From Bacteroidales bacterium (lineage in GTDB: Bacteria; Bacteroidota; Bacteroidia; Bacteroidales; Marinilabiliaceae): DNA of 64,000 nucleotides. Made by a program: the position numbers and the translations under genes. Positions 24,641-64,000 of the stretch are shown piece by piece. Each line of letters begins with the position of its first letter. Within the stretch, counting starts at the first letter, position 1. The notes under the pieces are model-generated. The model saw only the letters and a list, made by a program, of their open reading frames with translations, was not told the origin of the DNA and did not search any database. Where the stretch lies: positions 101,122-165,121 of the forward strand of contig JAKSLH010000004.1 of NCBI GenBank assembly GCA_024401335.1. Reading direction: 5' to 3'.

Positions 24641-24661
24641 CTGACATGGTTTTAATCAATG

Positions 24662-24691: not shown

Positions 24692-24701
24692 CCCAGTGGT
24701 T
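24669..24701 (-). terminator. Intrinsic terminator of rnpB
   Basis: AACCACTGGG and CCCGGTGGTT (plus-strand 24692-24701 and 24675-24684) form a 10-bp stem with one wobble pair, followed by six Ts. It starts about 10 bases after the end of the RNase P RNA. Confidence 0.85.
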
Positions 24702-24711
24702 CTATAGATAT

Positions 24712-25072
24712 CAGCAGACTTATAAGCCGAGTTCTGTACTTAGCGAACTAAGTGTCTATCATTTATCTTGGACATTGGTCACCCAATGCCTCAATCGACC
24801 TACCCCCTCCTGCCAGTTTTCACTACCTCAGCGAGCAACCGAGGTGATTTGCATCACCAGGAGTATACATGGTCTTTCAATCCATGGGGCGTACAACAAT
24901 CATGTCACCATGACTTTGGTGAGCTCTTACCTCGCCTTTTCACCCTTACTGCTTGCGCAGCGGTTGTTTTCTGTTACACCTACAAACCATCACTGACTTC
25001 TTCCCGTTAGGAAGCATGGTGCTCTATATTGCCCGGACTTTCCTCTTTAAAAAGCGATAGACCAGCCTACTG
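24712..25072 (-). ncRNA. rnpB: RNase P catalytic RNA (class A)
   Basis: Read on the minus strand, the conserved elements appear in order: GAGGAAAGTCCGGGC in the 5' part, AACGGGAAGAAGTCAGTGA, ACAGAAAACAACCGC, GGTAAGAGCTCACC, and the 3' ACAGAACTCGGCTTAT. The ends were set by the P1 helix: CAGTAGGC at the 5' end (25072-25065) pairs fully, with wobbles, with GTCTGCTG at the 3' end (24719-24712), giving about 361 nt. It is the ribozyme that trims tRNA 5' leaders. It begins only 10 bp after the stop of the SPOR-like gene, with no terminator between them and no clean promoter, so partial read-through from the adhesin operon is possible. Confidence 0.95.
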
Positions 25073-25082
25073 AAAATAAGTA

Positions 25083-25703: not shown

Positions 25704-25712
25704 TTGACTGAA

Positions 25713-27827: not shown

Positions 27828-27853
27828 AGTGGATGATATAGCTTAACCAATTA

Positions 27854-28834: not shown

Positions 28835-28884
28835 ATATGCTATGCGTTTAAAGATCATACAAATCATTCAATAATCCTAATCAA

Positions 28885-34800: not shown

Positions 34801-37800
34801 ATAAGTGATTGGCGAGCAAGAAGCACATTCATTCAAACGATATGTAATGCCCTCCTGAGGACCTTCAACTTTAATGGTAACACCATCCTGATTGCTACAA
34901 TAGTAGTCGTAACCTGGATAATCAAATACTACAGGGAGAGAAGCTATACCCTCGAGGGTCTTGATTGTCACAACATCCTCATCAGTACAGTTATAGTATG
35001 TAGTTGCAATAACCTTAACTTCAGCATCCTCAGTCATTGAATACTTGAAGATGTTGTTATCAGTACCAGTCTGAGTTGCAACAGAAACATCGTTAACGAA
35101 GAATTCGTATGTCTCGTAACCTGCAGTAGCTGTATAAGTAACCACATTACCAGTAATAACAAGAGTTGCAGAAGGTGTCAAAGTCACCTGTGGATTCTTG
35201 AATACCTTGAATGACTTAACTACAGCAGCATCATCTTGACAAGTACCAACATGACCTACAACACTAATTACATATTCATTGTAATCAGCACGAGTACCAG
35301 AGAAGCTACCGCTGTTATCAACGTATGAGTATGTCTTAGTTATAACAGCATCCTTAAACTCATCAGCAGGCATCAACTCACCGTCACGAGTAACTGTGAT
35401 TTCATAAGTCTGAGCACCAGTGATTGTGATAGTCATCTCGTTGTCTGAGCAAAGCTCGTCAGCCGAAAGATCTATATTAGTATGAGGAGCCTGAACAGTC
35501 TTAACAATAACCACTCTCGTACAACCACCAATAGTAGCAGATACAACTTGACTCTTAGACTCTGCTCCACCAAGAACCTGAGAATCAACAGTGATAGAAT
35601 TAACACCAGCGTCAGCACCATCGAGAAGAAGTGCTACATCACCTGTGTTACCATCCATAGAGAAATCAAGCTTAACCTGATCACCCTCGCATATCTGAAC
35701 AAGATCACCAACAAGTTCAGTTGTTGTACCGCCAACAGTCTGCTCAACCGAGATAGGAGCCTGGTAAGCAATAGTTATAGTCTTAGTCTCATTTGTACAG
35801 TGAGCATCTCCAACTTCAACATAGATAGTGTGAACTTCAGGATATTTAGAGAGATAAGTGAACTTATTACCGCTCTGTGTCAATCCAACTGAAGAGAGAT
35901 CTGCCACCTCAGCACCATCAACGAATACCTTATATGTAGTTGCAGAAGAAACTTCAAATGTCAAAGCATCGCCATCACATGGCTCAAACTTGTCTGCAGA
36001 AGTCTCTGTATGACTTGTAACAGTGATATCGTTAGATGGGAGGGCATATATAGTGAATGATGTAGTCTTGCTCTTAGAGCATGCTGACATATCATTATAC
36101 TTAGCCTCGATAGTCAATGTATATACTCCAGCATCATAAGAAGAGATAGATGAGATAATATACTTTTTATCAGTAGCACCAAGAACCTGATCCTTAACGA
36201 CATCGTTGTTGTCAGTCAAAGTGAAGTCGTATGTAAACATTCCTGAAGCATCGTCTGACTGAATTTCAAAGTCAACAACAAATGGATCGACATCTGTATT
36301 ACCAATACAGAATTCTGTTTCGTTAGCAACTACATTTTCAATAGTAAAGTCACGAACATCAACATTAAATGTATAAGGGTCCCCAGAACACATCAGCTTA
36401 TCACCAACATATTCAACAGCATATACTGTCCATTCACCTTCGTTATCAAGTGAAACATTTGGAGTGTAAACTTCAGAAGCTTCTACCTCTGCGCCACCAT
36501 TGAATGACCAGTAATACTTATAAGTAGATCCTGCAATAGAATTGCCAAGTGTTGCTGTGAGATTCATACTACCACCCTTAGAGAGGCAGTAAGTAAGATT
36601 ATCAACATTTGCAATAACTGGACGCTCACGAACAACAACTGTCAACTTCTGCTGGAGACCAACACAGAACTTATCACTATAATCGAGAGTGACATCAATG
36701 TGCTTACCAGCTGCAAGAGCAGATGCGTCATAATTGAATGTATCATCGGTAGAAGTAGCTACTACTGAACCATCAACCTCTGCTGACCAAGAATAGCTAA
36801 CCATGTCATTATCCTTAGCCTTAAGAGAAAGTGTAGAGCCTTCACAGATGAAATCATCTCCTATGATAGATGTAAGAGCGTATTTATTTACAGTCACATC
36901 AACATTAACAGTTGCCTGACAATGCTTTACATTCTCAATAACTACTTCAAATGTACCATTGTAAGCCTCTGTAACATTAGCAGCATAAAGATTATCAGAA
37001 GTAGACCATACTGTACCATCCTTCTTCCAAGAATAAGTATATGTAGCAGCATCTGAAGGTACGATAGTGATATTCAACTCATTATCAACGCATACAGTTG
37101 TATTACCATCTACTGTTGTTTCTGGAGCAGTGAATACAGACAACTCAAAAGGACTGTCTTCCAAAGTACAAGCATTCCAGTCAATTATCTTAACAAAATA
37201 GTCATAACCAGACAAAGGAGTAATAGTCTTAGTCACAGGAGACAAATAACCCCAATATCCATGACCCTTAGCATCATCGCTATAATCAACCGGACTAGTT
37301 GTATCACCCTTTAATCGTTTACCGATAAAGATATCTGGGTCAGAAGCATCAGTTGTCAAAGTAAGCTCGATAGACTCACCTTCACAAACATCACGCTCAG
37401 AAGGAGTTATAGTATATGTAGGAGCAGCATTAACATTAAAGTCAAAGCTTACTGTTTCAGACTTACAAAGAGTCTCAGTATCCTCTACGTAAACAGTAAT
37501 TGATATAGGACCTGAAGTAGAAGCCTTATATACTATGTTGTCATTAGCAAGATTTTCTACCTCATCTACTGACCAGTGATATTCAAGATTACTACCAGTA
37601 GCAGTAACATCGAGGGCTACCTCGTCAAACTGGCAATAAGACATATCTACAAGACCCAATTCAATAGTAGGAGAAGTAAATATTGTCATTGTAATCATAT
37701 CAGATTTTTCTGACTGACAGCCTGTAGCATTCTCAGCAACAACATAATAAGAAGTTGTTTCAGAAGGAGTTACTGGCATAGTGACAGGAGTTCCATCAGA

Positions 37801-40800
37801 CTTGAACCAATAATATGTCAAACTTGGATCAGGAGATGAAACCAAGAGAGTAACACCTAATTTCGAATCATTGCTACACATAGAAGCAGATGAAGTCTCA
37901 ATCACAGGCTTAGCAGGATATGCTACAGCAGTAGCAGTAACCGAAGTAATATCAGACTCACAGTCACCCAAGAAAGACTTAACGTAATAAACTGTTGAAC
38001 CAGCAGCAAGAGAAGCCACCTTGTAAGAAGTACCAACAGAAAGCTGATCTGTACAAGCAGCATCAGAATACCACTTATAAGTATATGACGAATTAGGTGA
38101 AGATACTGTCATTGTAACAGGATCACCATCACATACATCTGCAGGAGTAGCTACAACAGGAGCATCTGGCTTAGTATTAACAACTACTTTAGCCTTGACC
38201 TTGTCTGATTCTGCATTAAAGTCACAAGAACCAGATTCAGCAGTGAACAAGAATGTTGTTGGGTTTTCTGTCCATGTTCTGTTAACAGTGAAATCAACCT
38301 TATTATCAACAACTGCCTTTCTCTCACCTCCAGCAAGTGTAACATACGAAGCGTTTCCGCTAGTGATCGCAACATTGATAACAACATCACCAGTAGAACC
38401 GTAACATACCTCACGATCAGGAGTAGCAGTAAATGTAGGTTTCTTATTTACCTTTACAGTAACCGAAGCGTCTGAAGTTGCAGCACATTTCTTGTTATCA
38501 GTAACAGATACCTTATATTCAGTATCAACAATAGGTGAAACTGTTGCAGTATTTGTTGACGAAGAAACACCTGTCCAAGTATAAGTATATACACCAGAAC
38601 CACCTGCTGCAGAAGCAGTTAAAACAGATGACTGACCTTCGCAAATTGTTTCTGGAGTAGCTGTAAGAGTAACAGAAGGTAATGGATTGATAACTACAGT
38701 TACTGTAGCCTCATTCTCACAATAAGGAGCTGTTGTGCTTTGAACCATAACCTTATAAGTCTTGGTTCCAGCCACTGTTGGCACATCAGAATTACTTGAT
38801 GCAGAACCAGACAAACCTTCCCAAGAATATGTAACACCTGTTGCGGTAGCAGTAAGTTTAACAGTTTCACCCAAGCAATACTCAGCCTTATCAGCCTTGA
38901 GCACAACCTCAGGCAATGGGAACACAGCAACAGATTCTTCAACAGGATCAGAATCACATCCGGCAACCGAAGCTACAACAGAATATTTATAAACCTGCTT
39001 TGAAGACACCGTCTGATTAACAGTATAAACATTACCAGAAAACGTTCCTGATACAGCACCCGACAATGGTGTAACCACATAAGTCAATCCAGAATAACCA
39101 GATTTAGGCTCCATAACCAAAGTAGCATCACCATTTGAACATCCATCATTAGGAGTTATAGTAAATTCTGGCTTTGGCTTATAAGTAACAGTGAAATTAT
39201 ACTCATTACCTTTATCACATTCCTTACTATCAACTGCATAAACAGTAAAGTCAAATGCTGCACCTGCAGCAGGAATGTCAATCGAAGGTTTAAACATCAG
39301 AGCACCACCGTTCGCATCATCAGATTTAGAGGTAGCATTCTTTGATGCTCCATTTTCTTTCCATGACCAATAGAAAGTATAAGGAGCAGCAGTAGAACCA
39401 CTTATCGATGTAGGCTTAAGTGTTGCAGTTGCATCTTCACACAAAGGAGTTTCGGCACCACTAACATAGTCAATAACAGGAAGCTGATTTACCTTAACAG
39501 TTATTTCAGCAGGAACTTTCGTATCACAACCAGTAATTGTATTAACTGCAGTAACCTTATAAACCTTACCATCATAATCACCTGTAACGGTATATATCAA
39601 ACCGCCATTCTTTGCTACGCCATCTGCAGGAGTCCAAGTAATATTCACATTCTCCTGAGTAGAAGTAACCTTGAGATCGATTGTCTTACCTTTACAAACC
39701 TCAACGACAGGTTCAACAGCGGTAAGAACAGGGCGTTCATACATCGTAACAATAACGTCGTCATAAATATCGCAACCATCATTAGAAACGGTCAAACGAT
39801 ATGTACGAGAGCCACTATTGAAAGAAGCTCCTTCATCAACAACACTAAGAGCAGAAGCTGATGTCACATAAGAATCAAAAGAAGGAGTACAATCAACGCC
39901 TGACCACGTACAAGTATAAGTAGCAGAATTAGCACCAGTAACAGTTGCCGTCAACGACACACTACCATCTTCACAAACCGAAGCTACTTCAGAAGGGAAA
40001 GTAATTTTAGCTCTCTTTTCCTTCACAGTAATAGTAAATGGCTGTTCATATACACATTCACTCTCCGCCCAGTTATATGTCTGATCATAGACTACATACT
40101 TATATTCATAAGTTGTATTGGCGTTACCAACAATAGGAATATCTTCTGCATATATAGTATATCCTGCATCAAAAAGATCAAATGTCTCTACCAATTCATA
40201 AGAACCACCCTTCTTTATATACAGTTCAGCAAATCCATCATACAGGAAATCATCATCATCTACTTTCTTGAAAGTTGGCTCAAGTTCTACATCGTCACCT
40301 TCGCAGACCGATTGCGCATATGTAGACTCACCGTTAATATCCAAGAAGGTCGTCACAGGTGCATCATACTGAATTCGAATAGCACCCATCTGAGTTCTAC
40401 AACTCTCACCAACTACAGGACCTGTTTTCGTTCCCTCATGAGCAGTAAAAGTAACATAAGGAGTAAACTTATAGACATTTGAAGGACCAGATGTAACCCC
40501 TGAAAGAGATACAGACGAGCCGGATGCATAATCTTGAGTAAGACCAGCCGGATCACCTAAGTTCTCATTCAACAAGTCCCAAGAGTATACAGCCTCATAC
40601 ACATAGCCTAAACCTGTAGGAGATTCTCCATAAGGATACTGACCATTGCCAATAGAAAACTCTATATCATCACCCTCACAAACCGCTGCAGAATAAACAG
40701 CATTGCCTTCATCATATTCAACACCAACCGCACCGGTAATAACAGGGGCTGAAACTAAATCGAAGTCATAATCAAACTTATTTGATATAGCACCTAAAGA

Positions 40801-41400
40801 ACTACCATACTCAGCAGTAACTCGTATTGTCTTACCAGCACACGAAACAAGCTCTAACTCACCATCACCATCAGTATCCTCCTCCCATACAGGTGTATTG
40901 TTCAACCAAACAATCAAATCCTTAACACGGAACACACCATAACCCAAACGATAAGTAGTCGTAGAACCATTCGAAAGAATATACTGTACAAAGCTAGCAC
41001 CAGTAGGACCTATCACATTCGAAGCCTGTGGGTTAGTAAGGCTCCACATTGGATTTCCCGCTTCAACCCAATCTGCCGACGCACCCGAGGCGGTCGTCAT
41101 CGCCGAAGTTTGAACCGCAATCACCCTATCCACATCCATGTTCTCATCAAGAGTAGAAACGGTAATACGCTGCAATCTCCATGTAGAACCAGTTGTACTA
41201 TTAACAGAGTGAAGATACGAACCTTTATCATCACCATTACCAACAAGCGTTGTCGCATCTGTCACAGTACCCGTTGCACATTGAGGCATGGTATAACTAT
41301 GATAATGATACGTCTGGGCAAACGCTTCAGACGAGCAAATAACAGAGATGCATGCCAAAGCGAGAAGCATCAATATTTTAAATCGATTATTCATAACCAA
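28885..41400 (-). CDS. Giant SprB-like surface adhesin with type B T9SS sorting domain
   Basis: 4171 residues (about 440 kDa). The signal peptide is at the N-terminus (FKILMLLALACISVICSSEA; start at 41400 or two codons later at 41394). The body is a chain of repeats, each opening with a cysteine motif. About 20 have the Ig/PKD-like pattern (ICEGQSSVLTA, VCEGESIELTL) from about residue 210 to 2150. About 16 more, from about 2150 to 3650, have a different pattern ending in GxxYxL. The C-terminal region (about 4050-4171; VISPNGDGKNDKF, FNRWGTLVY, GTYFYIF) is the CHU_C gliding-motility-associated type B sorting domain. It should cross the outer membrane by T9SS and remain at the surface with the help of the SprF-like partner. 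Whether it serves gliding, biofilm or glycan binding is not visible. Confidence 0.93.
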   Translation of the reverse strand: MVMNNRFKILMLLALACISVICSSEAFAQTYHYHSYTMPQCATGTVTDATTLVGNGDDKGSYLHSVNSTTGSTWRLQRITVSTLDENMDVDRVIAVQTSAMTTASGASADWVEAGNPMWSLTNPQASNVIGPTGASFVQYILSNGSTTTYRLGYGVFRVKDLIVWLNNTPVWEEDTDGDGELELVSCAGKTIRVTAEYGSSLGAISNKFDYDFDLVSAPVITGAVGVEYDEGNAVYSAAVCEGDDIEFSIGNGQYPYGESPTGLGYVYEAVYSWDLLNENLGDPAGLTQDYASGSSVSLSGVTSGPSNVYKFTPYVTFTAHEGTKTGPVVGESCRTQMGAIRIQYDAPVTTFLDINGESTYAQSVCEGDDVELEPTFKKVDDDDFLYDGFAELYIKKGGSYELVETFDLFDAGYTIYAEDIPIVGNANTTYEYKYVVYDQTYNWAESECVYEQPFTITVKEKRAKITFPSEVASVCEDGSVSLTATVTGANSATYTCTWSGVDCTPSFDSYVTSASALSVVDEGASFNSGSRTYRLTVSNDGCDIYDDVIVTMYERPVLTAVEPVVEVCKGKTIDLKVTSTQENVNITWTPADGVAKNGGLIYTVTGDYDGKVYKVTAVNTITGCDTKVPAEITVKVNQLPVIDYVSGAETPLCEDATATLKPTSISGSTAAPYTFYWSWKENGASKNATSKSDDANGGALMFKPSIDIPAAGAAFDFTVYAVDSKECDKGNEYNFTVTYKPKPEFTITPNDGCSNGDATLVMEPKSGYSGLTYVVTPLSGAVSGTFSGNVYTVNQTVSSKQVYKYSVVASVAGCDSDPVEESVAVFPLPEVVLKADKAEYCLGETVKLTATATGVTYSWEGLSGSASSNSDVPTVAGTKTYKVMVQSTTAPYCENEATVTVVINPLPSVTLTATPETICEGQSSVLTASAAGGSGVYTYTWTGVSSSTNTATVSPIVDTEYKVSVTDNKKCAATSDASVTVKVNKKPTFTATPDREVCYGSTGDVVINVAITSGNASYVTLAGGERKAVVDNKVDFTVNRTWTENPTTFLFTAESGSCDFNAESDKVKAKVVVNTKPDAPVVATPADVCDGDPVTMTVSSPNSSYTYKWYSDAACTDQLSVGTSYKVASLAAGSTVYYVKSFLGDCESDITSVTATAVAYPAKPVIETSSASMCSNDSKLGVTLLVSSPDPSLTYYWFKSDGTPVTMPVTPSETTSYYVVAENATGCQSEKSDMITMTIFTSPTIELGLVDMSYCQFDEVALDVTATGSNLEYHWSVDEVENLANDNIVYKASTSGPISITVYVEDTETLCKSETVSFDFNVNAAPTYTITPSERDVCEGESIELTLTTDASDPDIFIGKRLKGDTTSPVDYSDDAKGHGYWGYLSPVTKTITPLSGYDYFVKIIDWNACTLEDSPFELSVFTAPETTVDGNTTVCVDNELNITIVPSDAATYTYSWKKDGTVWSTSDNLYAANVTEAYNGTFEVVIENVKHCQATVNVDVTVNKYALTSIIGDDFICEGSTLSLKAKDNDMVSYSWSAEVDGSVVATSTDDTFNYDASALAAGKHIDVTLDYSDKFCVGLQQKLTVVVRERPVIANVDNLTYCLSKGGSMNLTATLGNSIAGSTYKYYWSFNGGAEVEASEVYTPNVSLDNEGEWTVYAVEYVGDKLMCSGDPYTFNVDVRDFTIENVVANETEFCIGNTDVDPFVVDFEIQSDDASGMFTYDFTLTDNNDVVKDQVLGATDKKYIISSISSYDAGVYTLTIEAKYNDMSACSKSKTTSFTIYALPSNDITVTSHTETSADKFEPCDGDALTFEVSSATTYKVFVDGAEVADLSSVGLTQSGNKFTYLSKYPEVHTIYVEVGDAHCTNETKTITIAYQAPISVEQTVGGTTTELVGDLVQICEGDQVKLDFSMDGNTGDVALLLDGADAGVNSITVDSQVLGGAESKSQVVSATIGGCTRVVIVKTVQAPHTNIDLSADELCSDNEMTITITGAQTYEITVTRDGELMPADEFKDAVITKTYSYVDNSGSFSGTRADYNEYVISVVGHVGTCQDDAAVVKSFKVFKNPQVTLTPSATLVITGNVVTYTATAGYETYEFFVNDVSVATQTGTDNNIFKYSMTEDAEVKVIATTYYNCTDEDVVTIKTLEGIASLPVVFDYPGYDYYCSNQDGVTIKVEGPQEGITYRLNECASCSPITYDGTNTVAWYKVKVLEGETTSTYSVSAYHESLPGEVFDMANTLDVTEVPAPTSFKLLPYNESYDRCDVGFMISLEGSETNMFYTLFRNDDPMPGFEYVPGNGGQLDFLVAKSGGVYTAKAYSSYNGGYVCETKMDGTYSITTPEAEIFDVLKYPTDGLYCETSDGVEIKLSGTENGYEYVLFKDNIQYFDGEGHERRIIGGETNTFGKLTDEGNYTVWCFYNGCEQLMNGSVDVKMVTQPADQTLTVTNYGHFCEGSEGVTITLGGQEEGYYYALYCDGNLVADHVGVSGNPSYDFENITTVGNYTMVVEIPGVEAGCTRTLTDAVDVYEDKLPKEITMKLLANTICRDDFTDVQINGTEENVEYRLLENGNYLTSLYDTEGTARLIFKNVNGGGVKGSYTYTIEAIKTIVVEDGINTNTCPMTMAASEILRVENRPLDDGENEIVREATDSELADKRAADPCYGTDIIVENAQTSTELTFTYKLYRKNADDTWSYKSSFESTGNINNDRFNDIQDNNGIYRVGVYNGFCEDPIASQEVHITSDKFVTVQEVSVIDHMCQGDLGNDVRLLAAEDGVVYRLYDENDNILDEHIASGTASFKFSYKVINPGHYYVTGSKIGGCEIRMIPEFDFTVHPLPISYKLSGDDVYCDDLGVQLKLDGSELDVEYALYEKKGEDLFLVDTKYGTGDEFYFKTLPAGTYIAAARDEYTECTSSMLGEVVVKQMAPITALEDDEMSGSKIVCSDLVLSYTTNLTNNATYYLVNVGSDLVDAIDSVKYNGVDPVEFTLTETGDYNVIAAYSTKHLCKVVYDKINYVRTSIDESVVITLDETEVCNGSVKVVIETPQDGVTYVLNSDAITYSSKFSTGAPIEWTVSEMGTNAYYIVASVEGCGNVTLPSFEVTINEKFTHLNDDAVIDNLCQADYVSIDKFLNEGQSLIEGATYYLAKQGQDVTLTGGVRYVGATIPQFFVSESGHYQFYASYDGFKCLTPISKEYLFTVTPLTKFPVVAKPSCDGNVTVTLQGTEPGVIYTINDVEGVADEDGNLTWVFAASTVGNETYTVIGSKEGCSGVEIGVVSAATIPNLNPSGEVIVKDVNACPGYQIEWDGVAFINDAIYYLVKGKNDPSTGSEVFSKYTGEKPEFMLTSSGVYTVWATFNSECFTQLMTINFTSIPYAGTATLSANTLCGDNVVVLTNCESGVTYRFNDIDMTPNESGVVQWTLESIPTTPTPIYAIVGECDPFVIFTVSGDSFVGSSLKDIVSVSSNPNCVYTEILVSNAIPGFIYSDRNHPQYSEEGSGNDISWKIRGTGSYTYDVWAVNINNPECEFQLGSSVLDLTALRTDTTLFAVGTNEYCGYDFGVELALSNGYKNTTYRLYKVKEEDELFDELMDIQELPYYYTKEKVDTLMFNGWAFNSADYRHKAAAGTYYVVVDDSDSNCRFSTDSVTVVENPLPYSAVNDTVSMYFAAGEFINGHYNVSADTKNDKFGLVDTGFLVLENAHKGYKYELVHLNVVNGVDYVLHTIDDVEEGDTIFMGPITSELKELITYESDGVMLTDTVNVMGIGDYTIRITDMTHETMCQTELEGVTMIDEELTTYDVFLFMNGSQSAIRQKLIPSYGHKGNHKFLDWSATIDKVYTPEVTTSPDGTSTVTSDMNVDKFGDQTGYSSLRGDLCTNANIVFELLDQSSVTYLDAYEPGCLTDSVVTTEFLDKYEVGCDSTYTTTSYQYVKYIFDEHGNAQGTLKLDEWQEGCDSIAIGGYSYWKKNTIYTYYKIESLKDKMFGSCGFDDYDGTSELLWESMTGEFVYRRAANFYGKEVIPYRAYNARMRNIRYSNISHITILCGNENVPGDSTTFLIPNVISPNGDGKNDKFYVMLPEAYENNHTSSLEVFNRWGTLVYRSSGVKYGEWKDGSSESQRRENGCPEWDGTSKTSNMLTVGEKLPQGTYFYIFTINFNIDNEIRTKKLSGYVELRK
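30700..34930 (-). repeat. About 16 class-2 cysteine repeats of the giant adhesin
   Basis: Approximate bounds (residues about 2150-3570). By eye, each unit shows a Cys, then a strand such as GVTIKVEG or GVEIKLSG, then (E/Q)xGxxYxL and a charged turn. Examples are DGLYCETSDGVEIKLSG and YGHFCEGSEGVTITLGG. Unit length is about 90 residues. I do not recognise a named domain. Confidence 0.6.
34930..40790 (-). repeat. About 20 class-1 Ig/PKD-like repeats of the giant adhesin
   Basis: Approximate bounds (residues about 200-2150). Units of about 80-110 residues open with (V/I/Y)C-x-G-x3-x-L and carry a central YTYTWxG or YKYYWS strand, then an x-V-x-V-x-P ending. They match the Ig-like/PKD-type repeats common in CHU_C proteins. 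Confidence 0.65.
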
Positions 41401-41429
41401 TTAATAGACAAATCGTTAACCTTCAAACC

Positions 41430-41463
41430 TACAGACTTTAGTCTATAGATAGTCGCAAATATA
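41430..41463 (-). promoter_or_regulatory. -7 box and leader hairpin of the adhesin operon
   Basis: On the minus strand TATATTTG (41463-41456) fits TAnnTTTG. Transcription would begin near 41450, 50 bases before the start codon. The leader holds an 8-bp hairpin (41430-41437 with 41440-41447), with one G-T wobble on the transcript strand. No -33 TTG is apparent. Confidence 0.45.
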
Positions 41464-41799
41464 CCAAAAAAAAGCCACATTAGGCACATAATAGTACATT
41501 TTTATTAACAATAAATACAGTGCACCCCTAACAATGACTGGGAAGGGCAAGTCTGTTTAGTGCTTTTCATAGAAAAAAAAGAGCAGTTAGACATAAACCA
41601 AAACACTACAAAATATGGACACGACAACAAAAAGAGAGCGAATAAACATGTCTATTATAACAAAATGACAACAGAAAAACACGAAGAAATTGACATACCA
41701 AGAGCCTGTTATGTGTGCCAAAAACAAAATAAAAGGCAAAAAAGACATGATATTCAAAAAAAACTACATATATTTAGCCAAACATTAAATCGAATAATC
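41464..41799. other. 336-bp divergent intergenic region
   Basis: Between the adhesin promoter and the small T9SS cargo gene. A plus-strand frame is open from 41560 into that gene, but its first 80 codons are Lys/Asn-rich, lack a signal peptide and look non-coding. TATATTTA (41769-41776) is a near match to a -7 box for the cargo gene. I see no other structure. Confidence 0.4.
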
Positions 41800-42528
41800 A
41801 TGAAACAAAGTTTACTCACAATTGCAGCCGCTTTATTTTCATTGTCTATAAATGCGAGCGAACTTCAGGCCTGGGAGAAGGGCGATGCTATAGATTCAGA
41901 AGAGCAGAAATTTGACATATGCGTAACAAACTTTAAGATCATAGCAGAATCAACATTAACAATAGAGGAGCAATATACTGGCATCACCTACCAAGGAGAC
42001 CAGATACAATACGCATTCGTACAAGGCTTAGGAAACGGCACGACGTCGGTAATAAGATCCAACGCTGGTCAATATACAGCGATTGTCATCAACTCCCTTA
42101 GACTCACTTTGATTAAGGCTGCATCGTTGGCTGACCTTACTAATGTAACCTCGTTCAGCATCGCAACAACAACGCCAGCAACAGTAGAAGCCGGAGCCTT
42201 CCCTACCTCTTGGGCAACTACCTGTGCACTTACCGTTCCAGAAGCTAGCAAAGAGGCCTACAAGACAGCTTGGGGACAGTACTTCTACAGCATTAACGGC
42301 GAAGTAATAGAACATGGCACTCCTACTGCTATATCAAATGCGAAAACTTCATTCTCTGTTCGCACAGCCGGCAAGACCATCATATTGAGCGAAGCTACCG
42401 ACGTGCAGGTTTATAGCATAACTGGCGCTAACGTGTTCAGCGGAACAACCGACAAGATCGACGTGAAGCAGAACGGCATCTATATCGTGAAGACTAGAAA
42501 CGGCGTACAGAAGGTGTCTGTTAAGTAA
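41800..42528 (+). CDS. Small secreted T9SS cargo protein with type A-like C-terminal domain
   Basis: 242 residues from the ATG at 41800, chosen because it opens a signal peptide (MKQSLLTIAAALFSLSINAS). The longer frame from 41560 is probably not translated. The C-terminal 65 residues (ATDVQVYSITGANVFSG, GIYIVKTRNGVQKVSVK) fit the type A T9SS sorting domain. The middle has a segment (CALTVPEASKEAYKTAWGQ) resembling the cap after BspA-type leucine-rich repeats (CxLYVPxGSxxxYK), though at most one or two degenerate repeats are present. The function is unknown. It is divergent from the giant adhesin and has its own terminator. Confidence 0.7.
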   Translation: MKQSLLTIAAALFSLSINASELQAWEKGDAIDSEEQKFDICVTNFKIIAESTLTIEEQYTGITYQGDQIQYAFVQGLGNGTTSVIRSNAGQYTAIVINSLRLTLIKAASLADLTNVTSFSIATTTPATVEAGAFPTSWATTCALTVPEASKEAYKTAWGQYFYSINGEVIEHGTPTAISNAKTSFSVRTAGKTIILSEATDVQVYSITGANVFSGTTDKIDVKQNGIYIVKTRNGVQKVSVK

Positions 42529-42556
42529 ACACACACATTCCATAAAAGAAACTAAT

Positions 42557-42587
42557 GGCTGGGACTTAATGGCCTCAGCCTTTTTTT
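42557..42587 (+). terminator. Intrinsic terminator of the T9SS cargo gene
   Basis: GGCTGGG (42557-42563) pairs with CTCAGCC (42574-42580) with one wobble, followed by seven Ts. Confidence 0.8.
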
Positions 42588-42597
42588 ATGACACCCT

Positions 42598-42641
42598 TGC
42601 GATACCTAAGCGATAACATAGCGATAACATAGCGATAGCTA
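42598..42641 (+). repeat. Four tandem 11-bp GCGATA repeats
   Basis: Consecutive 11-bp units read TGCGATACCTA (42598), AGCGATAACAT (42609), AGCGATAACAT (42620) and AGCGATAGCTA (42631). All share GCGATA and repeat with near-exact helical phase. They end 10 bp before a -7 box, so they cover the -33 position, the layout used by PhoB/OmpR-type activators. Confidence 0.8.
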
Positions 42642-42651
42642 AACCATACCG

Positions 42652-42659
42652 TAACTTTG
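42652..42659 (+). promoter_or_regulatory. Orphan -7 box downstream of the 11-bp repeats
   Basis: TAACTTTG fits TAnnTTTG. There is no TTTG at -33, where the GCGATA repeats sit instead, suggesting an activator-dependent promoter. The next coding start (42957) is about 290 bases downstream, so this would make a long leader or a separate small RNA. Confidence 0.45.
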
Positions 42660-42926
42660 CTACAAATGGAGCTTAAGACTATACTGAGGTTATAGTGATG
42701 TATAGTCATCCGTCATCTAACATAACTAACAGTTATAACACAAAAAACATGCATACTATGTAGAGAAAATGACAAATGAATATTCTAACTATATAATAAT
42801 TCTATATAATTAATTACTATATATATCCTCTCTCTATTCCATAATATACACAAGAAACTACCCAAGGGGGGGGCACTTTTTTGTGTTAGTAATGTTATGT
42901 TTGTTATAAATAAGCCATCTTTTGAT
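42660..42926. other. AT-rich non-coding stretch with a G8 tract
   Basis: Very AT-rich, with no open frame of note. It contains a run of eight Gs at 42866-42873, isolated in AT-rich DNA, followed by a CAC-TTTTTT-GTG mini hairpin. It may be the leader of the DUF6057-like operon or a small RNA. I see no clear terminator before 42927. Confidence 0.4.
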
Positions 42927-42934
42927 TACTTTTG
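42927..42934 (+). promoter_or_regulatory. -7 box of the DUF6057-like operon
   Basis: TACTTTTG fits TAnnTTTG, with a predicted start near 42940 and the ATG at 42957. TTTG at 42900-42903 is 23 bp upstream, slightly too far. It lies within the first codons of the longer frame from 42897 and so argues against that start. Confidence 0.45.
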
Positions 42935-42956
42935 CTATATATCACTTTGCAATATC

Positions 42957-44399
42957 ATGTCGCGTAGTCAGAAGATATCTCTTACAATAGCTGCTGCATT
43001 CATTGCCGCAATACTATACTACTTCCAGTTGTACCGATTCTACAGCATATCAGCAGACCACCAGTTTCTGATCGACAAAGAATGGATCCTTACCCAAATA
43101 AAACAACCAGGAGGCACTGCACTGCTGATATCATCTTTCGCAACCCAGTTCTTCACATCCCCTATCATTGGAGTCATTGTGACGACAATCATATACATGG
43201 CAATAGCACTGACCATCACATGCATCATGAGGTGCAGAGATATCATGGCTACAGCCTACCCTATCGCTTTCCTTCCTGTCATATTCATGTTCCTTTCCAT
43301 GGAGAATAGCTACTACGGCTTCAGGGGCCACGTAGCACTGCTGATCACCATTGTTGCACTGTTTATCTATGAAAAATTCATCAAGAGGACTGACACTGCC
43401 CAAAGAGCTGCCATAGCAACAGCAACCGCGGCATTGCTATACTTCATGACTGGTTCAACAACAATAATATTCGCCATATACATAATAATGGACGAATTGA
43501 TGAAAAAACGTGTACCATTGACCGGAATCGCCGCATCAGCAGCCTCATTGGCCATCGCATACCTATCGGTACTCCAATCATCATTCATCAGTATTGAGGA
43601 GGCACTAACACCACAGCAATACTACAACTGGCCATCTTCATATTTCTTCCAGATATACGCATGGGCATCGGTGGTTCTGACAATGCCACTGGGCCTCCTC
43701 ATAAGCAAGATATGCGGCAACCACATAAGAGACATAATAATAACCTCACTATTGGCCTTGGCCATATTCGCCACTGGCACAAGGTTATTCTCTATAGTAC
43801 ACAATAGCAACAACTATCAGCTGCACCACGAGGAATACCTGGCACAGCACGAAGATTGGGACTCTATAATAGAACTGCACAAAGGCAGCAAACAACCTGT
43901 ATATTTCATCAGCTATCTGAATCTGGCTCTAGCCCAGAAAGGCGTCCTTGTAGAAAGCATGAGCAGATACAACCAGATGGACGTGAGCGAGAAACTTGGA
44001 TGGCAGCCTACATCGAAAGAGGGTTTGCAGCTCAAGAGTACTGTATTCTACCATCTCGGATTCCTCTCCGCAGCACGCCAGGCGACATTCGAACTAAACA
44101 TCATGACACCGGGCTCTGCCAACCCCGAAGCGCTCGTCAGACTTGCCTCAATAAGCAAGGCTATGAACTACAGCACCCTAGCCGACAAATACTTCTATGT
44201 GGCCCACAAGGCCTTGCTCTATTGCGACGCACAGCCTCAAGCAATAGAGACACGCACACCCAACGACAACCGTTTCATGGGCATTGACGGATTCGAAAAA
44301 GACCTCGAGGATATCGTCGAAGCCAACCCTGACAACGACATAGCAATACAGTTTCTGAAGGCATATAGAGTTGTCTGCAACAAATACCGAAACAAATAG
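42957..44399 (+). CDS. Multi-pass membrane protein, DUF6057-like
   Basis: 480 residues from the ATG at 42957. The frame opens at 42897, but the added 20 residues precede a promoter box. The first helix is LTIAAAFIAAILYYFQLYRF. About 9-10 membrane helices fill residues 8-300, followed by a soluble tail of about 180 residues with helical, TPR-like character. I associate it with DUF6057, a Bacteroidota family without known function, at moderate confidence. Only 3 bp separate it from the PD40 lipoprotein, so the two probably work together at the envelope. Confidence 0.65.
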   Translation: MSRSQKISLTIAAAFIAAILYYFQLYRFYSISADHQFLIDKEWILTQIKQPGGTALLISSFATQFFTSPIIGVIVTTIIYMAIALTITCIMRCRDIMATAYPIAFLPVIFMFLSMENSYYGFRGHVALLITIVALFIYEKFIKRTDTAQRAAIATATAALLYFMTGSTTIIFAIYIIMDELMKKRVPLTGIAASAASLAIAYLSVLQSSFISIEEALTPQQYYNWPSSYFFQIYAWASVVLTMPLGLLISKICGNHIRDIIITSLLALAIFATGTRLFSIVHNSNNYQLHHEEYLAQHEDWDSIIELHKGSKQPVYFISYLNLALAQKGVLVESMSRYNQMDVSEKLGWQPTSKEGLQLKSTVFYHLGFLSAARQATFELNIMTPGSANPEALVRLASISKAMNYSTLADKYFYVAHKALLYCDAQPQAIETRTPNDNRFMGIDGFEKDLEDIVEANPDNDIAIQFLKAYRVVCNKYRNK

Positions 44400-59255: not shown

Positions 59256-59288
59256 TATATTTGCATTGTAATTGTAAGAATAATTACA
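59256..59288 (+). promoter_or_regulatory. Promoter and start-site palindrome of the ATP-grasp operon
   Basis: TATATTTG (59256-59263) is a -7 box, with a start near 59270 and a 60-base leader. TGTAATT (59267-59273) and AATTACA (59282-59288) form an inverted repeat across the predicted start. It may be an operator or a 5'-end stabilising hairpin. Confidence 0.45.
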
Positions 59289-59332
59289 CCAAAAGAACGA
59301 ATTTATTACTCAAGACCTAAAAACTATCAGAT

Positions 59333-60652
59333 ATGTACACGCGACTATTAACACAAAAAGATGCGGTAAACAAGTGGATGGAGAGATATGGCGTCCGCTT
59401 TGGAATCTACAAGAACGGGACGTTCAAAGAGCAGATTTTCCCGTTCGATGCAATACCGAGAGTGATAAGCAACAGCGACTGGACTGAACTCGAAAAGGGT
59501 CTCAAGCAGCGCGTGGATGCTCTTAACGCTTTCTTGCGTGACATATACACCGAAAAGAGGATCATCAAGGACGGTGTTGTTCCAGAGGACTTTGTCTACT
59601 CATCTAAGGGCTACCTTCCTCAGTGCGAGGGCATAACGCCTTCTAAGGGTATCTTCTCCCACATTTCGGGCATCGACCTGGTGCAGGCTGAAGATGGCAC
59701 CTGGTATGTCCTCGAAGACAACCTCAGAATACCTTCCGGCGCCTCTTACCCTATGATCGCGAGACAGCTCACCAGAAAGGCTTCGCCTGAGACATTCGAC
59801 GGGGCAAAGGTTTTCGACAACCGCGACTACGCTCGTATGATTCGCGAAATGATGGATCATGTGAATGTCGATAACGGTCTTGAGGTGATACTGACTCCTG
59901 GCCGCTACAACTCGGCTTTCTTCGAACACTCCTACCTGGCCGAGAAGGCTGGCGTGGTGCTTGCCTTCCCCGACGATCTGTTCGTCGATGGCGATAAGGT
60001 GTACTACAAGGGTCTTTTCAACGAGAGGGAACGCGTGGGCGCTATCTACCGTAGATTGTCCGACGAATATCTCGACCCTATGACGTTCGAACGTTCGTCG
60101 CTCTTGGGCGTGCCTAACTTGTTCCAGGCTTACGCTAAGGGCAATGTCGCGATTGTCAACGCTCTCGGCAATGGCGTGGCCGACGATAAGGGTATCTACT
60201 ACTTCGTGCCTAAGATGGTCGAATACTACCTCAACGAAAAACCTATTCTTAAGAACGCTCCAACTTATCTGCCTTTCTACGAGAAGGATAGGAATTATGT
60301 ACTGGAGAATCTCCATAAGCTCGTGATAAAGGATGTGGCCGAAGCGGGCGGCTATGGCGTGATGTTCGGCAGAGACATGGACGAGAAGCGCCTCGAAGAG
60401 GTGAAGGAGCTCGTGCGCACTCAGCCTCGACGCTGGATCGCACAGGAGGTGATCAACTTTATCGACCTCGAGATTATGGAGGGCGACGAGAGGGTGATGA
60501 GAAAGGCCGATCTGAGAGCTTTCGTTGTCTCGGGCAAGGAGACGAAGGTGTGGCCTAGCGGCTTGACTCGTTTCACTAGAGACCCTAAGTCGTTTGTTGT
60601 CAACTCCTCACAGGGCGGCGGATTCAAGGATACTTGGGTAATGGCGGAGTAA
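59333..60652 (+). CDS. Circularly permuted ATP-grasp protein (type 2)
   Basis: 439 residues with the features of the circularly permuted ATP-grasp family: RFGIYKNGTF near the start, SGIDLVQAEDGTWYVLEDNLRIPSG near 110-135, VLTPGRYNSAFFEHSYLAE near 180, and GGYGVMFGRDMD near 345. ATP-grasp enzymes join a carboxylate to an amine through an acyl phosphate. In published comparative work (amidoligase survey by Iyer and colleagues, 2009) these proteins co-occur with alpha-E and transglutaminase-fold proteins and are predicted to make short peptides or peptide tags. The substrates are unknown. It is first in a probable operon with the next four genes. Confidence 0.85.
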   Translation: MYTRLLTQKDAVNKWMERYGVRFGIYKNGTFKEQIFPFDAIPRVISNSDWTELEKGLKQRVDALNAFLRDIYTEKRIIKDGVVPEDFVYSSKGYLPQCEGITPSKGIFSHISGIDLVQAEDGTWYVLEDNLRIPSGASYPMIARQLTRKASPETFDGAKVFDNRDYARMIREMMDHVNVDNGLEVILTPGRYNSAFFEHSYLAEKAGVVLAFPDDLFVDGDKVYYKGLFNERERVGAIYRRLSDEYLDPMTFERSSLLGVPNLFQAYAKGNVAIVNALGNGVADDKGIYYFVPKMVEYYLNEKPILKNAPTYLPFYEKDRNYVLENLHKLVIKDVAEAGGYGVMFGRDMDEKRLEEVKELVRTQPRRWIAQEVINFIDLEIMEGDERVMRKADLRAFVVSGKETKVWPSGLTRFTRDPKSFVVNSSQGGGFKDTWVMAE

Positions 60653-60690
60653 TAATCAATACGAATAAAAACATTTAAACTTTTACAGAT

Positions 60691-61380
60691 ATGACGACCA
60701 AGATGTTTCTTTCAGCTATCTCTCCTGCTAAGGCAGACCGACTCTACTGGCTGGGCAGATATTCAGAACGTGTATGTACTGTTCTCCATATACTACGCAA
60801 ATACTACGATGCGATAATCGACGACGAGCACACTAATTCTCACAAGGTGTTCTGCTCTAAGATGGGCATCCCTTGCGAAGTGGAGAACTCTCGCGAATTT
60901 GTCCATAAATATCTCTACGACGAGACGCTCAACTACTCGGTTATCAATATGCTCGAACGTGTGAAGGACAACGCTATTCTTCTGAGGGAAGAACTCAAGA
61001 GCGAGAGTCTTCAGTATATAGAATTGGCTATCAACTTCATGAAGAGGGCTGGCGAGGAGGATCTTAAGCTCTACGACATTCAGTATGTAACCGACGTGAT
61101 GTATTCGTTCTGGGGCGCTGTCGAGGATAGAATATACAACTCTAAGGTGAGGGACATCATCACTTCTGGTAAATATATCGAGAAGCTCGACCTCTATATC
61201 CGTTTTGGCTACGAGGCTGAACGCATCGAGGATGTGTTGTCAAGACTGGAAAGGGTCGATGCTTTCGAGGGCGATTTCTACAACACTACCGACTTCATCA
61301 ACCTGAAACAGCGCATCGCAATGCCTGGCTTCAGCACTGAAGAGACGCTCAACGTTGTCAACAGTCTCTTCGCCGCATAG
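60691..61380 (+). CDS. Alpha-E domain protein
   Basis: 229 residues, all-helical. The opening LSAISPAKADRLYWLGRYSERV is the alpha-E signature (LSRxAxxLYWLGRYxER). The family is usually about 300 residues by my recollection, so this one is somewhat short, though complete. Alpha-E proteins are nearly always encoded next to circularly permuted ATP-grasp proteins. Their role is unknown, and they could be the peptide-modifying partner. It is 38 bp after the ATP-grasp gene. Confidence 0.85.
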   Translation: MTTKMFLSAISPAKADRLYWLGRYSERVCTVLHILRKYYDAIIDDEHTNSHKVFCSKMGIPCEVENSREFVHKYLYDETLNYSVINMLERVKDNAILLREELKSESLQYIELAINFMKRAGEEDLKLYDIQYVTDVMYSFWGAVEDRIYNSKVRDIITSGKYIEKLDLYIRFGYEAERIEDVLSRLERVDAFEGDFYNTTDFINLKQRIAMPGFSTEETLNVVNSLFAA

Positions 61381-61402
61381 AGTAGTAACCAAAGGTACTG
61401 GA

Positions 61403-62209
61403 GTGATTCTGAAGTACACATACCGCACGCTTATCACGTTTTCGACGCAGGTGTCTTCGCATACGTTCATGCTGCGATGCACTCCCTACGCCAACGAATA
61501 CCAGCGCCTCATTGAACATAAGACATCGGTCATCCCTAATTGTCTGCTGACAAGGAGCAACGACACTTTCGGCAGCATACTGGAGACTGGCTATGTCGCT
61601 GATATGCACGATGCGTTTATGTTCGAATCGACGGGTATCATCGAGATTGGCAACAACCGCAGCATCGAGAAGGTCAACCCGCTTTTCCACTACCATTCTG
61701 AACTGACGACGCCCGACATGGCTATAAGGGATGCGGCTAGGCTGATCGGCATGGACATGTCTGTGACTGAATGGGTCATGAGGTTGTCCGACTACCTGCA
61801 GGGCCACTTCCAATATGAGAGCGGTGCGACGAATGTGAAGACTACGGCCTCCGAAGCATTCTCGCTGGGCAAGGGTGTCTGCCAGGACTATGCCCATATT
61901 GCCATTGCAATGTGCAGGGAGGTCGGAATAGCGGCAAGGTATGTCAACGGGTTCATGATTGGTGAAGGGGCCACTCACGCATGGATAGAATATCACGACG
62001 GAGAGCGGTGGCTGGGCTTCGACCCGACAAACAACAGGCCTGTTGATGATACTTACATCAAGATCGCTCACGGCAGAGACTTCAACGACTGCTCCATCAA
62101 CAGAGGTCGTTTCAACGGCATAGCGGAGCAAAACATTAAAGTGACATTGATGGTCGAACAGCTAAAGAAGCTGCCTAAAGAACAGACAAAACAAATAAAA
62201 AACCAATGA
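61403..62209 (+). CDS. Transglutaminase-like cysteine protease-fold protein
   Basis: 268 residues from GTG 61403 (preceded by AAAGG). The frame is open from TTG 61355, inside the previous gene, but residues before VILKYTYRTLITF do not look like the family start. The catalytic triad is clear: Cys in GKGVCQDYAH (near 160), His in ATHAWIEYH, Asp in LGFDPTNNRPVD. The N-terminal part is the usual beta-sandwich (HTFMLRCTPYANEYQ). It has no signal peptide, so it acts in the cytoplasm. In this context it may cleave or cross-link the peptide product. Its stop overlaps the next start (ATGA). Confidence 0.85.
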   Translation: MILKYTYRTLITFSTQVSSHTFMLRCTPYANEYQRLIEHKTSVIPNCLLTRSNDTFGSILETGYVADMHDAFMFESTGIIEIGNNRSIEKVNPLFHYHSELTTPDMAIRDAARLIGMDMSVTEWVMRLSDYLQGHFQYESGATNVKTTASEAFSLGKGVCQDYAHIAIAMCREVGIAARYVNGFMIGEGATHAWIEYHDGERWLGFDPTNNRPVDDTYIKIAHGRDFNDCSINRGRFNGIAEQNIKVTLMVEQLKKLPKEQTKQIKNQ

Positions 62210-63138
62210 TAAAGACAGTTGTTTCAGAAGACTTGCCCGTTCACGAAAGGCTTCTGATATATAAGAACGTCGTTGGAGCCAAGGGCAAAGACGGTAAGCG
62301 TATCTGCATCGTCACAGGCATACACGGCGACGAACTCGAGGGACAATACGTATGCTACGAATTGCTACGTCGCCTCAACGAACAGACTAATGAACTACAT
62401 GGCCAGGTGGAAGTCTACCCTGCTATCAACCCTCTCGGTGTGGACAGCGTGACGCGTGGCATTCCTACATTCGACCTCGACATGAACAGGATATTCCCTG
62501 GCTCACCTAACGGCCACATGGTGGAGAACGTGGCGCACCAGGTGGTCGAGGATCTGAAGGGGGCCGACTTGGTGATCGACATCCACTCTTCCAACATATA
62601 TCTCTACGAGGTGCCACAGGCTCGCATCTCTAACATATACGCCGACAAGCTCTATCCTATGGCGGAGAAGCTCAACCTCGACTTTATCTGGATTCACGAG
62701 GCTGCAACGGTGCTCGAGGCTACAATAGCTCACTCTCTCAACTCGGCCAACACACCGACTATTGTTGTGGAGATGGGCATCGGCATGAAGATAACACGCG
62801 AATATGGCGACCGTCTTGTTGACGGCATCCTCAACTTGCTTACCGACATGGGTGTGTGGACTGGCAATAAGCCTACTGAGGTGACTCAGCCTATCGACTC
62901 ACGCACTGGCGACGTGAGCTTCATCAACGCTTCTCGCTCTGGTGTCATCATAAGCGCACTGCCTCATGGCACAAGGGTCAAGAAGGGCGACACGATCTGC
63001 CAGCTGGTCAACACACTGGATGGCACGGTGCAGGAAGAGGTGAAGAGTCCTGTTGACGGACTGTTGTTTACCGTGCGTAGCTACCCTATCGTTTATGAGG
63101 GTTCGCTCATCGCACGCATATTCAGAGACAAGGAGTAA
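62206..63138 (+). CDS. AstE/AspA-type zinc amidohydrolase (succinylglutamate desuccinylase family)
   Basis: 310 residues. The zinc ligands are intact: GIHGDELEG near 38-46 (His and Glu) and DIHSSN near 125 (His). LDMNRIFPG near 90 and VVEMGIGMK near 188 (catalytic Glu) are present. The C-terminal part has the beta-domain of this family (VKSPVDGLLFTV-like). Family members remove an acyl group from an N-acylated amino acid, so it could hydrolyse a gamma-linked or acylated peptide. It overlaps the transglutaminase gene by 4 bp. Confidence 0.85.
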   Translation: MIKTVVSEDLPVHERLLIYKNVVGAKGKDGKRICIVTGIHGDELEGQYVCYELLRRLNEQTNELHGQVEVYPAINPLGVDSVTRGIPTFDLDMNRIFPGSPNGHMVENVAHQVVEDLKGADLVIDIHSSNIYLYEVPQARISNIYADKLYPMAEKLNLDFIWIHEAATVLEATIAHSLNSANTPTIVVEMGIGMKITREYGDRLVDGILNLLTDMGVWTGNKPTEVTQPIDSRTGDVSFINASRSGVIISALPHGTRVKKGDTICQLVNTLDGTVQEEVKSPVDGLLFTVRSYPIVYEGSLIARIFRDKE

Positions 63139-63144
63139 GGCTAT

Positions 63145-64000
63145 ATGAAACAGACTAACATATTCACAATGAAGTCGCCTTTCCGCGACGACTTCGCAAT
63201 ACCAGGATATTACTTCGGCAACGGCGAAAAGACGGTTGCTATAGTAGGATCGATGCGTGGAGACGAGATACAGCAGCTCTTTGTCGCATCACAGGTGGTA
63301 AAGAACCTGACAAGACTTGAAGAGGCCGGAATGATATCTAAGGACCACGGCATTCTCGTTATACCATCAGCCAACCACTATTCTATCAACATACATAAGC
63401 GTTTCTGGGCCATGGACAATACCGACATCAACCGTATGTTCCCTGGCTACGACCAAGGAGAGACGACACAGCGCGTAGCGGCCGCTATCTTCGAAGCTGT
63501 GAGAGGTTACGAATATGGCATACAGCTCGCCTCATACTACCTGAGCGGCAACTTCGTCCCTCATGTGAGAGTGATGGACACTGGCTACCAGGACACCGAC
63601 GACGCTAAGGCTTTCGGCTTGCCATACGTCTATGTCTATGAGCCTAAGCCTTTCGACACTTGCGTGTTAAACTACAACTGGCAGGTGTTCGAGACGAAAG
63701 CTTTCTCGGTGTATAGCGGATCAACAGATACAATAGAGAAGGAGATGGCTAAGATGACGTGGCTCTCTATATTGCGATTCCTCGACTCTAAGGGGATAAT
63801 AAAGCACCCTTGCCACGGCGGATATCAGCCCTACATCTTCAACAAATCATCACTCCACACCATTGTGTCGAAGCAGGCAGGACTCTTCTACGTCCAGTGC
63901 AAGGTCGGACAACAGGTGCGACAGGGCGACATACTGGCCAAGATACTCGACCCATACACTGGCGAGACAAAGACGCTCATCGAGTCACCTGTCAACGGAA
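63145..64000 (+). CDS. AstE/AspA paralogue, apparently lacking zinc ligands (3' partial)
   Basis: At least 285 residues, open to the end of the window. The ATG at 63145 is 6 bp after the previous stop. It aligns with its neighbour through the NRMFPG motif (near 97), the C-terminal VQCKVGQQVRQGDILAKI and the ending TGETKTLIESPVNG. However, where the neighbour has GIHGDE it reads GSMRGDE, and where the neighbour has DIHSSN it reads GIQLASYY. Both zinc His ligands therefore look replaced, so it is probably not a hydrolase, or uses a different site. It may be a non-catalytic partner of the preceding enzyme. Confidence 0.75.
   Translation, partial: MKQTNIFTMKSPFRDDFAIPGYYFGNGEKTVAIVGSMRGDEIQQLFVASQVVKNLTRLEEAGMISKDHGILVIPSANHYSINIHKRFWAMDNTDINRMFPGYDQGETTQRVAAAIFEAVRGYEYGIQLASYYLSGNFVPHVRVMDTGYQDTDDAKAFGLPYVYVYEPKPFDTCVLNYNWQVFETKAFSVYSGSTDTIEKEMAKMTWLSILRFLDSKGIIKHPCHGGYQPYIFNKSSLHTIVSKQAGLFYVQCKVGQQVRQGDILAKILDPYTGETKTLIESPVNG

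Follow-up and report, generated by a model that had tools for sequence, protein, structure and literature searches.

What does a bacterium gain by placing a ligase of the ATP-grasp fold in one transcriptional direction with two proteins of the AstE/AspA hydrolase family? The question is raised by a locus at the 3′ end of the 64,000-nucleotide stretch analysed here (the window), which spans positions 101,122 to 165,121 of contig JAKSLH010000004.1 from a Bacteroidales bacterium of the Marinilabiliaceae (assembly GCA_024401335.1; 2.7 Mb in 33 contigs). Five genes at window positions 59333-64000, all on the + strand, encode a circularly permuted ATP-grasp protein (AG), an alpha-E protein (AE), a transglutaminase-like protein (TG), and a first and a second AstE/AspA protein (AA1 and AA2). 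The operon is a variant of a known, unsolved kind, typified by the Anbu operon, and is real and widely conserved. What is new here is the pairing of an active-type enzyme, AA1, with a predicted pseudoenzyme, AA2, and the joining of this pair to a separate clade of the ligase. The five genes, with their Pfam matches, are as follows.

59333..60652, + strand: AG, circularly permuted ATP-grasp amidoligase, 439 residues (PF14403, E = 1.9e-139; PF04174, 1.1e-125)
60691..61380, + strand: AE, short alpha-E protein, 229 residues (PF04168, E = 1.4e-16)
about 61403..62209, + strand: TG, transglutaminase-like protein (PF01841, E = 6.3e-21; PF08379, E = 1e-9)
62206..63138, + strand: AA1, AstE/AspA-type hydrolase with a complete predicted zinc site, 310 residues (PF24827, E = 3e-25)
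63145..64000, + strand: AA2, AstE/AspA-type predicted pseudoenzyme, 285 of 308 codons inside the window (PF24827, E = 1.8e-8)

The stop codon of AA2 lies about 71 bases beyond the window edge (L003:6193, equivalent to window position 64071). The mechanically called open reading frame (ORF) of TG begins at a TTG at 61355, but the GTG at 61403 is the preferred start because the relatives L100 and L110 begin M-L-L-K-Y. TG and AA1 overlap by 4 bases (62206-62209) and 6 bases separate AA1 from AA2 (63139-63144), so that the first-pass annotation of this DNA was right about the five genes, their common strand and both junctions. The gene 3′ of AA2 encodes a low-molecular-weight phosphatase on the opposite strand, and AG is separated from the preceding ORF by about 420 bases; the unit is therefore AG-AE-TG-AA1-AA2. 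Within this genome a search with AA1 matches only AA1 and AA2, and PF14403 occurs at one place.

Is this gene order a property of one genome or of a family of operons? Comparison of the order in relatives had been set beforehand as the test of the annotation's proposal, and the AstE/AspA genes proved to be linked to the other three. A scan of named genomes with AG yielded the best 80 loci among at least 585 relatives, and the full five-gene order, on one strand, is present in 68 of them. A further 11 end at or near a contig end, although one of these, L079, has 659 bases after AG without alpha-E and may be a true exception. The single clear exception in order is L028, from Tannerella, in which a glutamate dehydrogenase gene (L028:5976-7160) directly follows TG, in the usual place of AA1-AA2. 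As these loci had been picked by AG, a second scan was started from AA2; all 16 loci that it returned display the full order, 7 of them apparently identical to AG-first contigs and 9 of them new. Recurrence in 68/80 AG-first and 16/16 AA2-first loci places the arrangement beyond chance.

The distribution of the module is uneven. In a phylum sample of 148 genomes PF14403 matched in 57 (54 above its cut-off), while the AA2 profile (E ≤ 1e-40) was found in the genome of the window only. An order sample of 119 genomes contained PF14403 matches in 8, above cut-off in 5, and AA2 in exactly those 5. Among 249 Bacillota genomes AA2 (E ≤ 1e-30) occurs in 2, and PF14403 matches in 25, above cut-off in 14 and at full length in 5; the latter comprise the two AA2 carriers, with frames of 438-441 residues, and three classical proteins of 498-507 residues. 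AA2 is present in 11 of 71 genomes of the window's family, and the module is thus patchy; in the genus the figure is 10 of 15. In one genome of that genus, G584, the five-gene operon is present twice, in copies that differ from each other (L115 and L116).

The two AstE/AspA proteins differ sharply at the active site. A joint alignment contained 68 AA1 and 67 AA2 rows after omission of sequences shorter than 280 residues (from 73 and 69, respectively). His40, Glu43, His127 and Glu189 of AA1, which by reference to aspartoacylase we take to be the HxxE...H zinc ligands and the catalytic Glu, are present in 68/68 rows, and Arg84, Asn94 and Arg95, to which we ascribe the carboxylate-holding role of the Arg/Asn/Arg set in the same enzyme, are likewise invariant. 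In AA2 the position of His40 is occupied by Arg38 in 67/67 rows, that of His127 by Ala129 in 61/67 (otherwise Ser, Pro or Thr, never His) and that of the catalytic Glu189 by Tyr190 in 66/67, whereas the middle Glu (Glu41) and the equivalents of the carboxylate-holding residues (Arg86, Asn96 and Arg97) are kept in 67/67. A comparison of the AA1 and AA2 profiles agrees at both His positions and places a gap at the catalytic Glu, while one pairwise alignment puts Ala186 there; the residue is Glu in none of the three alignments. Because both zinc histidines and the catalytic Glu are replaced, AA2 is predicted to be a conserved pseudoenzyme, probably metal-free, in which the ligand anchors are retained. 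Its simplest and most likely role is that of a binding or regulatory partner of AA1. Thus, of the two AstE/AspA-like proteins pointed out by the first-pass annotation, AA1, with a full zinc site, stands as a probable acyl-removing enzyme, while AA2, which lacks the site in all 67 rows, appears instead to be a pseudoenzyme. An apparent AA1-AA2 fusion in L119 was rejected, as the ORF is actually two genes in different frames.

The domain and fold of AA2 are those of the AstE/AspA family (PF24827; predicted local distance difference test (pLDDT) of the structural model, 88.1). The predicted structure matches DoeB best (Protein Data Bank (PDB) 6twm, 2.8e-20), then CphZ (8eip, 5.5e-19) and related AstE/AspA proteins. 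Several stretches of the protein are nearly invariant, namely Arg38, Gly39, Glu41, Gln44, Thr107-Thr108-Gln109-Arg110 and Asn176-Tyr177-Asn178-Trp179-Gln180. Such conservation would also be expected if AA2 were an active, metal-free enzyme of new chemistry that exploits Arg38 and Glu41. This possibility is very improbable, however, as loss of both His residues and the Glu is the usual mark of a pseudoenzyme and the conserved residues may serve binding.

The nearest characterized relatives of AA1 point to small substrates. Sequence matches of AA1 in the PDB are 3cdx, 2qj8, DoeB (6twm) and CphZ (8ein). AA1 shares its zinc ligands and fold with DoeB/EutE, the N-acetyl-diaminobutyrate deacetylase, which provides the nearest NCBIfam model (TIGR02994); the scores, 76.2 bits for AA1 and 32.2 for AA2, are nevertheless far below the cut-off of 402.7. 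CphZ, which hydrolyses the β-Asp-Arg dipeptide of cyanophycin in the breakdown of this nitrogen-rich polymer (PMC12661447), has an AstE/AspA-type fold and is matched by AA1 in sequence (2.4e-5 and 1.9e-7), but is only 16-18% identical to AA2 in fold alignments, a likeness of sequence and fold alone. As the DoeB model describes a deacylase of a linear pathway, AG and TG could build an amide that AA1 deprotects late, in a one-way biosynthesis that involves no cycle. A pathway of that kind is rather unlikely, given that no further gene accompanies the five: in scans of 92 upstream and 91 downstream proteins (from totals of 128 and 114, near-copies and doubtful ORFs being omitted), the ammonium transporter was the only family with more than two matches.

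The remaining three proteins carry the expected features of their families. In AG, 54 columns are conserved across both the AA1/AA2-associated (AA-type) and the classical branches described below, including Lys333, Gln371, Arg395, Gly428-Gly429 and Lys432-Trp435. At E ≤ 0.001 AG has a single sequence match in the PDB, 3n6x (5.9e-106), labelled a putative glutathionylspermidine synthase, a name that is the depositors' own and has no activity attached. AE retains Trp20, Gly22, Arg23, Tyr24 and Arg27 in 78/78 sequences and is confidently predicted to be all-helical (AlphaFold2 pLDDT 90.7); its fold search against the PDB gave 67 matches at E ≤ 10 and none at E ≤ 0.001. The TG triad, Cys (codon 61880-61882), His (61976-61978) and Asp (62021-62023), is kept in 77/77. 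In two places the genes are broken, the AG of a relative (L016/L111) being split into two ORFs and the AE, AA1 and AA2 of the Calditrichota locus L036 lying in pieces; assembly error or decay could explain both.

The AG-AE-TG core corresponds to a described amidoligase pattern (PMC5666114, PMC6376114), which agrees with the view of the first-pass annotation that these genes follow an arrangement predicted to make peptides or peptide tags. The closest known system is the Anbu operon, which has homologous AG, AE and TG genes on one strand and likewise includes a hydrolase-type protein, the proteasome-like Anbu. This gene is listed last, after TG, in the published operon (PMC6376114), and the Pseudomonas putida genes PP_2688 to PP_2685 run likewise (PMC7801951); the Yersinia homologue of AG releases phosphate from ATP (PMC6376114). 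The window operon differs in that it is without Anbu, its AG is shorter and sits on a separate long branch, and its AE is also shorter. RimK-RimB and Rlo systems similarly place an ATP-grasp protein beside a peptidase, one of them with an inactive transglutaminase domain, but there the peptidase is of the aspartic type, RloB is a membrane protein and alpha-E is not named in the portion available (PMC12239564). A metagenome clone from Ulva with ATP-grasp, alpha-E, transglutaminase and protease genes is tabled among antinematode bacteria, on the authority of a thesis, with its compound and mode of action not determined (PMC7764037). Among the literature matches listed, a coverage outside which Iyer et al. 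2009, the founding paper on the peptide-tagging prediction, falls, none describes the five-gene unit or a product of it, in keeping with the annotation's statement that no product is known; nor do the papers covered name a product for the Anbu operon.

The shared core also invites the explanation predicted for the Anbu operon, in which proteins would receive an amino acid or peptide from AG and TG and lose it again through AA1/AA2. The idea is set out as tagging in PMC6376114 and as peptide synthesis in PMC5666114, and a removing enzyme beside a ligase fits the turnover of a tag. The five-gene unit, however, contains no small tag protein, and of the characterized relatives of AA1, DoeB has a small N-acyl amino acid as its substrate and CphZ a dipeptide; neither acts on proteins. 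Protein or peptide tagging is thus an unlikely function of the window operon.

How are the operons with AA1/AA2 related to the classical ones? A tree of 50 AG proteins was built from 37 of the 81 AA-type sequences and 13 of the 15 classical ones, and the program warned of long branches (L091 and L094). All 37 AA-type proteins form one clade (support 100/100) on a branch of 3.05 changes per column. The clade spans four phyla, Bacteroidota, Bacillota, Thermodesulfobacteriota and Calditrichota, and its Bacillota rows adjoin two Bacteroidales rows (93/91), which together suggest horizontal spread of the module across phyla, although misbinning could affect single contigs of metagenome-assembled genomes, the Calditrichota one among them. 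The open frames of AG are 438-472 residues long in the AA-type and 476-537 in the classical group, and AE has 229 residues in the window as against 311-356 in classical frames. A third, distant kind of ATP-grasp protein was also encountered: L088:4536-7139 encodes an ATP-grasp domain fused to alpha-E (868 residues), and the ATP-grasp proteins of L089 and L091 (857 and 896 residues) group with it in the tree.

The two kinds of operon are also separate in gene content. AA1/AA2 are found in none of 18 classical loci (15 from the phylum sample and 3 from Bacillota), while an Anbu gene (PF00227) is present in 5 of the 15 phylum-sample loci, the rest consisting of AG-AE-TG, AG alone in its stretch, or a long AG. 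Both Anbu and the AA genes are missing from the three classical Bacillota loci. An Anbu query, which finds the five known genes, matched none of the AA-type ORFs of L003-L083, L099-L102 and L108-L119, and gave no match in 5 AA-type genomes in a search run without its own positive control. The Anbu gene lies between AE and TG in L084, L092, L096 and L098 (Bacteroidota), unlike the published order, and in L094 it follows AE, with TG on the other strand. The notion that AA1-AA2 occupies the slot of Anbu was therefore rejected, as the fetched Bacteroidota loci place Anbu elsewhere; AA1-AA2 provides the module with an alternative hydrolase and is not a like-for-like replacement at one position. At the L094 locus the opposite strand encodes a fusion of a transglutaminase with a DUF2126 putative amidoligase (L094:6029-9430).

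Which process might such an operon serve? Its neighbours point to nitrogen. Among the 92 proteins encoded within two genes upstream of AG an ammonium transporter was matched by 8, in 7 loci, and no other family by more than two. A search of 866,272 flank bases around 95 loci, five of which (L109, L111, L112, L113 and L117) appear to duplicate other contigs, placed an ammonium transporter in the flanks of 11 loci, whereas the 9 copies present in five genomes would predict about 0.47; in 7 of the 11 the transporter is less than 200 bases away. Not all of these are independent. L029, L032, L033, L037, L041 and L114 share one Prevotella-like arrangement, with transporters 88-93% identical to that of L041, and count as one event to the detriment of the nitrogen argument; L065 and L070 are sisters in the AG tree, and L044, L053 and L017 stand alone, the L017 transporter being 28% identical, 2.5 kb away and on the other strand. 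This kinship reduces the 11 loci to four or five independent events, and the chance of four is roughly 0.0015. Other nitrogen genes in the flanks of the 95 loci (CarB 6, GltB 2, AsnB 2, glutamate dehydrogenase 2) were counted without a control and are not used as evidence.

Published work on the classical core is consistent with this link. PP_2685-2688 of P. putida are induced under nitrogen limitation, the first data column giving a rise of 11- to 15-fold for PP_2686-2688 (PMC7801951), and on nitrate versus ammonium PP_2685 and PP_2688 change by log2 4.4 and 4.0, respectively (PMC8050072). The core genes of Burkholderia cenocepacia are NtrC-dependent (PMC5491218), and co-variation of the core's Pfam domains with urea-use domains is described for marine metagenomes (PMC3597751). 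The nitrogen link is good for this kind of operon as a whole and moderate for the AA-type variant. Neither this link nor the separate AG clade was foreseen in the first-pass annotation.

A nitrogen link could also reflect the use of an amide or amine as nitrogen source, AG attaching an amino acid handle to the amine and the hydrolases freeing the nitrogen. The ammonium transporters, the one glutamate dehydrogenase gene at L028 and the response of the classical core to nitrogen limitation would all suit this scheme, but no oxidase or amine uptake gene recurs among the scanned neighbours, and we regard it as distinctly improbable.

Our best reading, which we favour tentatively as falling a little short of an even balance, is that the locus belongs to the Anbu-type operons as a variant, and that under nitrogen scarcity its enzymes form and hydrolyse an amide-linked compound. 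From gene content, gene order, clade and residue patterns, all directly observed, we infer the catalytic steps, the AA1-AA2 partnership, the role in nitrogen metabolism and the compound. AG, probably partnered by AE, would join a carboxylate to an amine with ATP, forming the amide through an acyl phosphate, and TG would make or break an amide by its Cys-His-Asp triad. AA1, as a zinc hydrolase of the AstE/AspA fold, would cleave an amide beside an amino-acid carboxylate, its substrate most simply being the compound made by AG or a form of it. AA2, the presumably metal-free paralogue that keeps the ligand anchors, would be a subunit of AA1 with a binding or regulatory function. Together they would supply the hydrolase step that Anbu may supply in other members, and the module would most likely serve nitrogen economy through a make-and-cleave amide cycle under scarce ammonium; a cycle of making and cleaving had been suggested by the first-pass annotation.

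Several observations weigh against such a cycle. The absence of Anbu from 10 of the 15 classical phylum-sample loci means that a core without it is not special by itself, and CphZ and DoeB are distant, sharing 16-20% of residues with AA2 in the fold matches listed. For Yersinia, neither a specific interaction of the operon proteins nor peptidase activity of Anbu was observed (PMC6376114), and PP_2685, the Anbu gene of P. putida, rose only 1.1-fold in the first data column of PMC7801951. Both ammonium transporter genes of the window's genome are on other contigs, and only one of 11 same-genus AA2 loci (G588) has an adjacent transporter. As the G588 operon scores like those of Prevotella (738 bits for AG and 359 for AA2), it may have been transferred or misbinned. 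Downstream flanks show no recurrent family (none matched by more than two of 91 proteins), and among the literature matches listed there is no transcriptome of the AA-type variant under nitrogen limitation.

Upstream of AG a candidate promoter element was called with TAnnTTTG, which we assume to be the consensus for the −7 box, and was scored without a control:

59256..59263, + strand: candidate Bacteroidetes-type −7 box, TATATTTG, 77 bases 5′ of the AG start

Between this box and AG lies a palindrome, TGTAATT-N8-AATTACA (59265-59290), whose pattern recurs in 3 of 79 upstream regions (L003, L042 and L074) where about 0.35 were expected from the all-loci rate of 0.0044 per 400 bases. It was dropped as an element because it is missing from the near relatives L004-L006 and because the high A+T of upstream DNA is not reflected in the expectation. 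Elsewhere in the window, a 4171-residue ORF at 28885-41400 (− strand) has Ig-like domains and a type IX secretion signal and adjoins genes for PorP/SprF, OmpA-family and SPOR-domain proteins (with 25083-28867, − strand). The G+C content around it is low, 0.39-0.42 in 24001-44000 compared with 0.46-0.50 in the rest of the window.

A more specific form of the make-and-cleave proposal, which is doubtful, describes a self-contained nitrogen-limitation cycle of gut bacteria: AG and AE would store or signal nitrogen as an amide, AA1 would release it, and AA2 would sense the compound and gate AA1, so that the cleavage step would be solved in two unrelated ways, by Anbu in some operons and by the AA pair in others. 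For the Anbu-type operon more generally, the AstE/AspA pair limits the possibilities for the hydrolase step, and, as a small N-acyl amino acid is the substrate of DoeB and a dipeptide that of CphZ, the compound may be sought with a small panel of substrates. Some carriers are cultured strains, namely Parabacteroides distasonis An897, Bacteroides mediterraneensis Marseille-P2644T and Prevotella sp. P6B1, P2-180 and P5-92, and the question is therefore open to genetics. AA1 and AA2 also represent a widespread pair of an active enzyme and its predicted pseudoenzyme partner.

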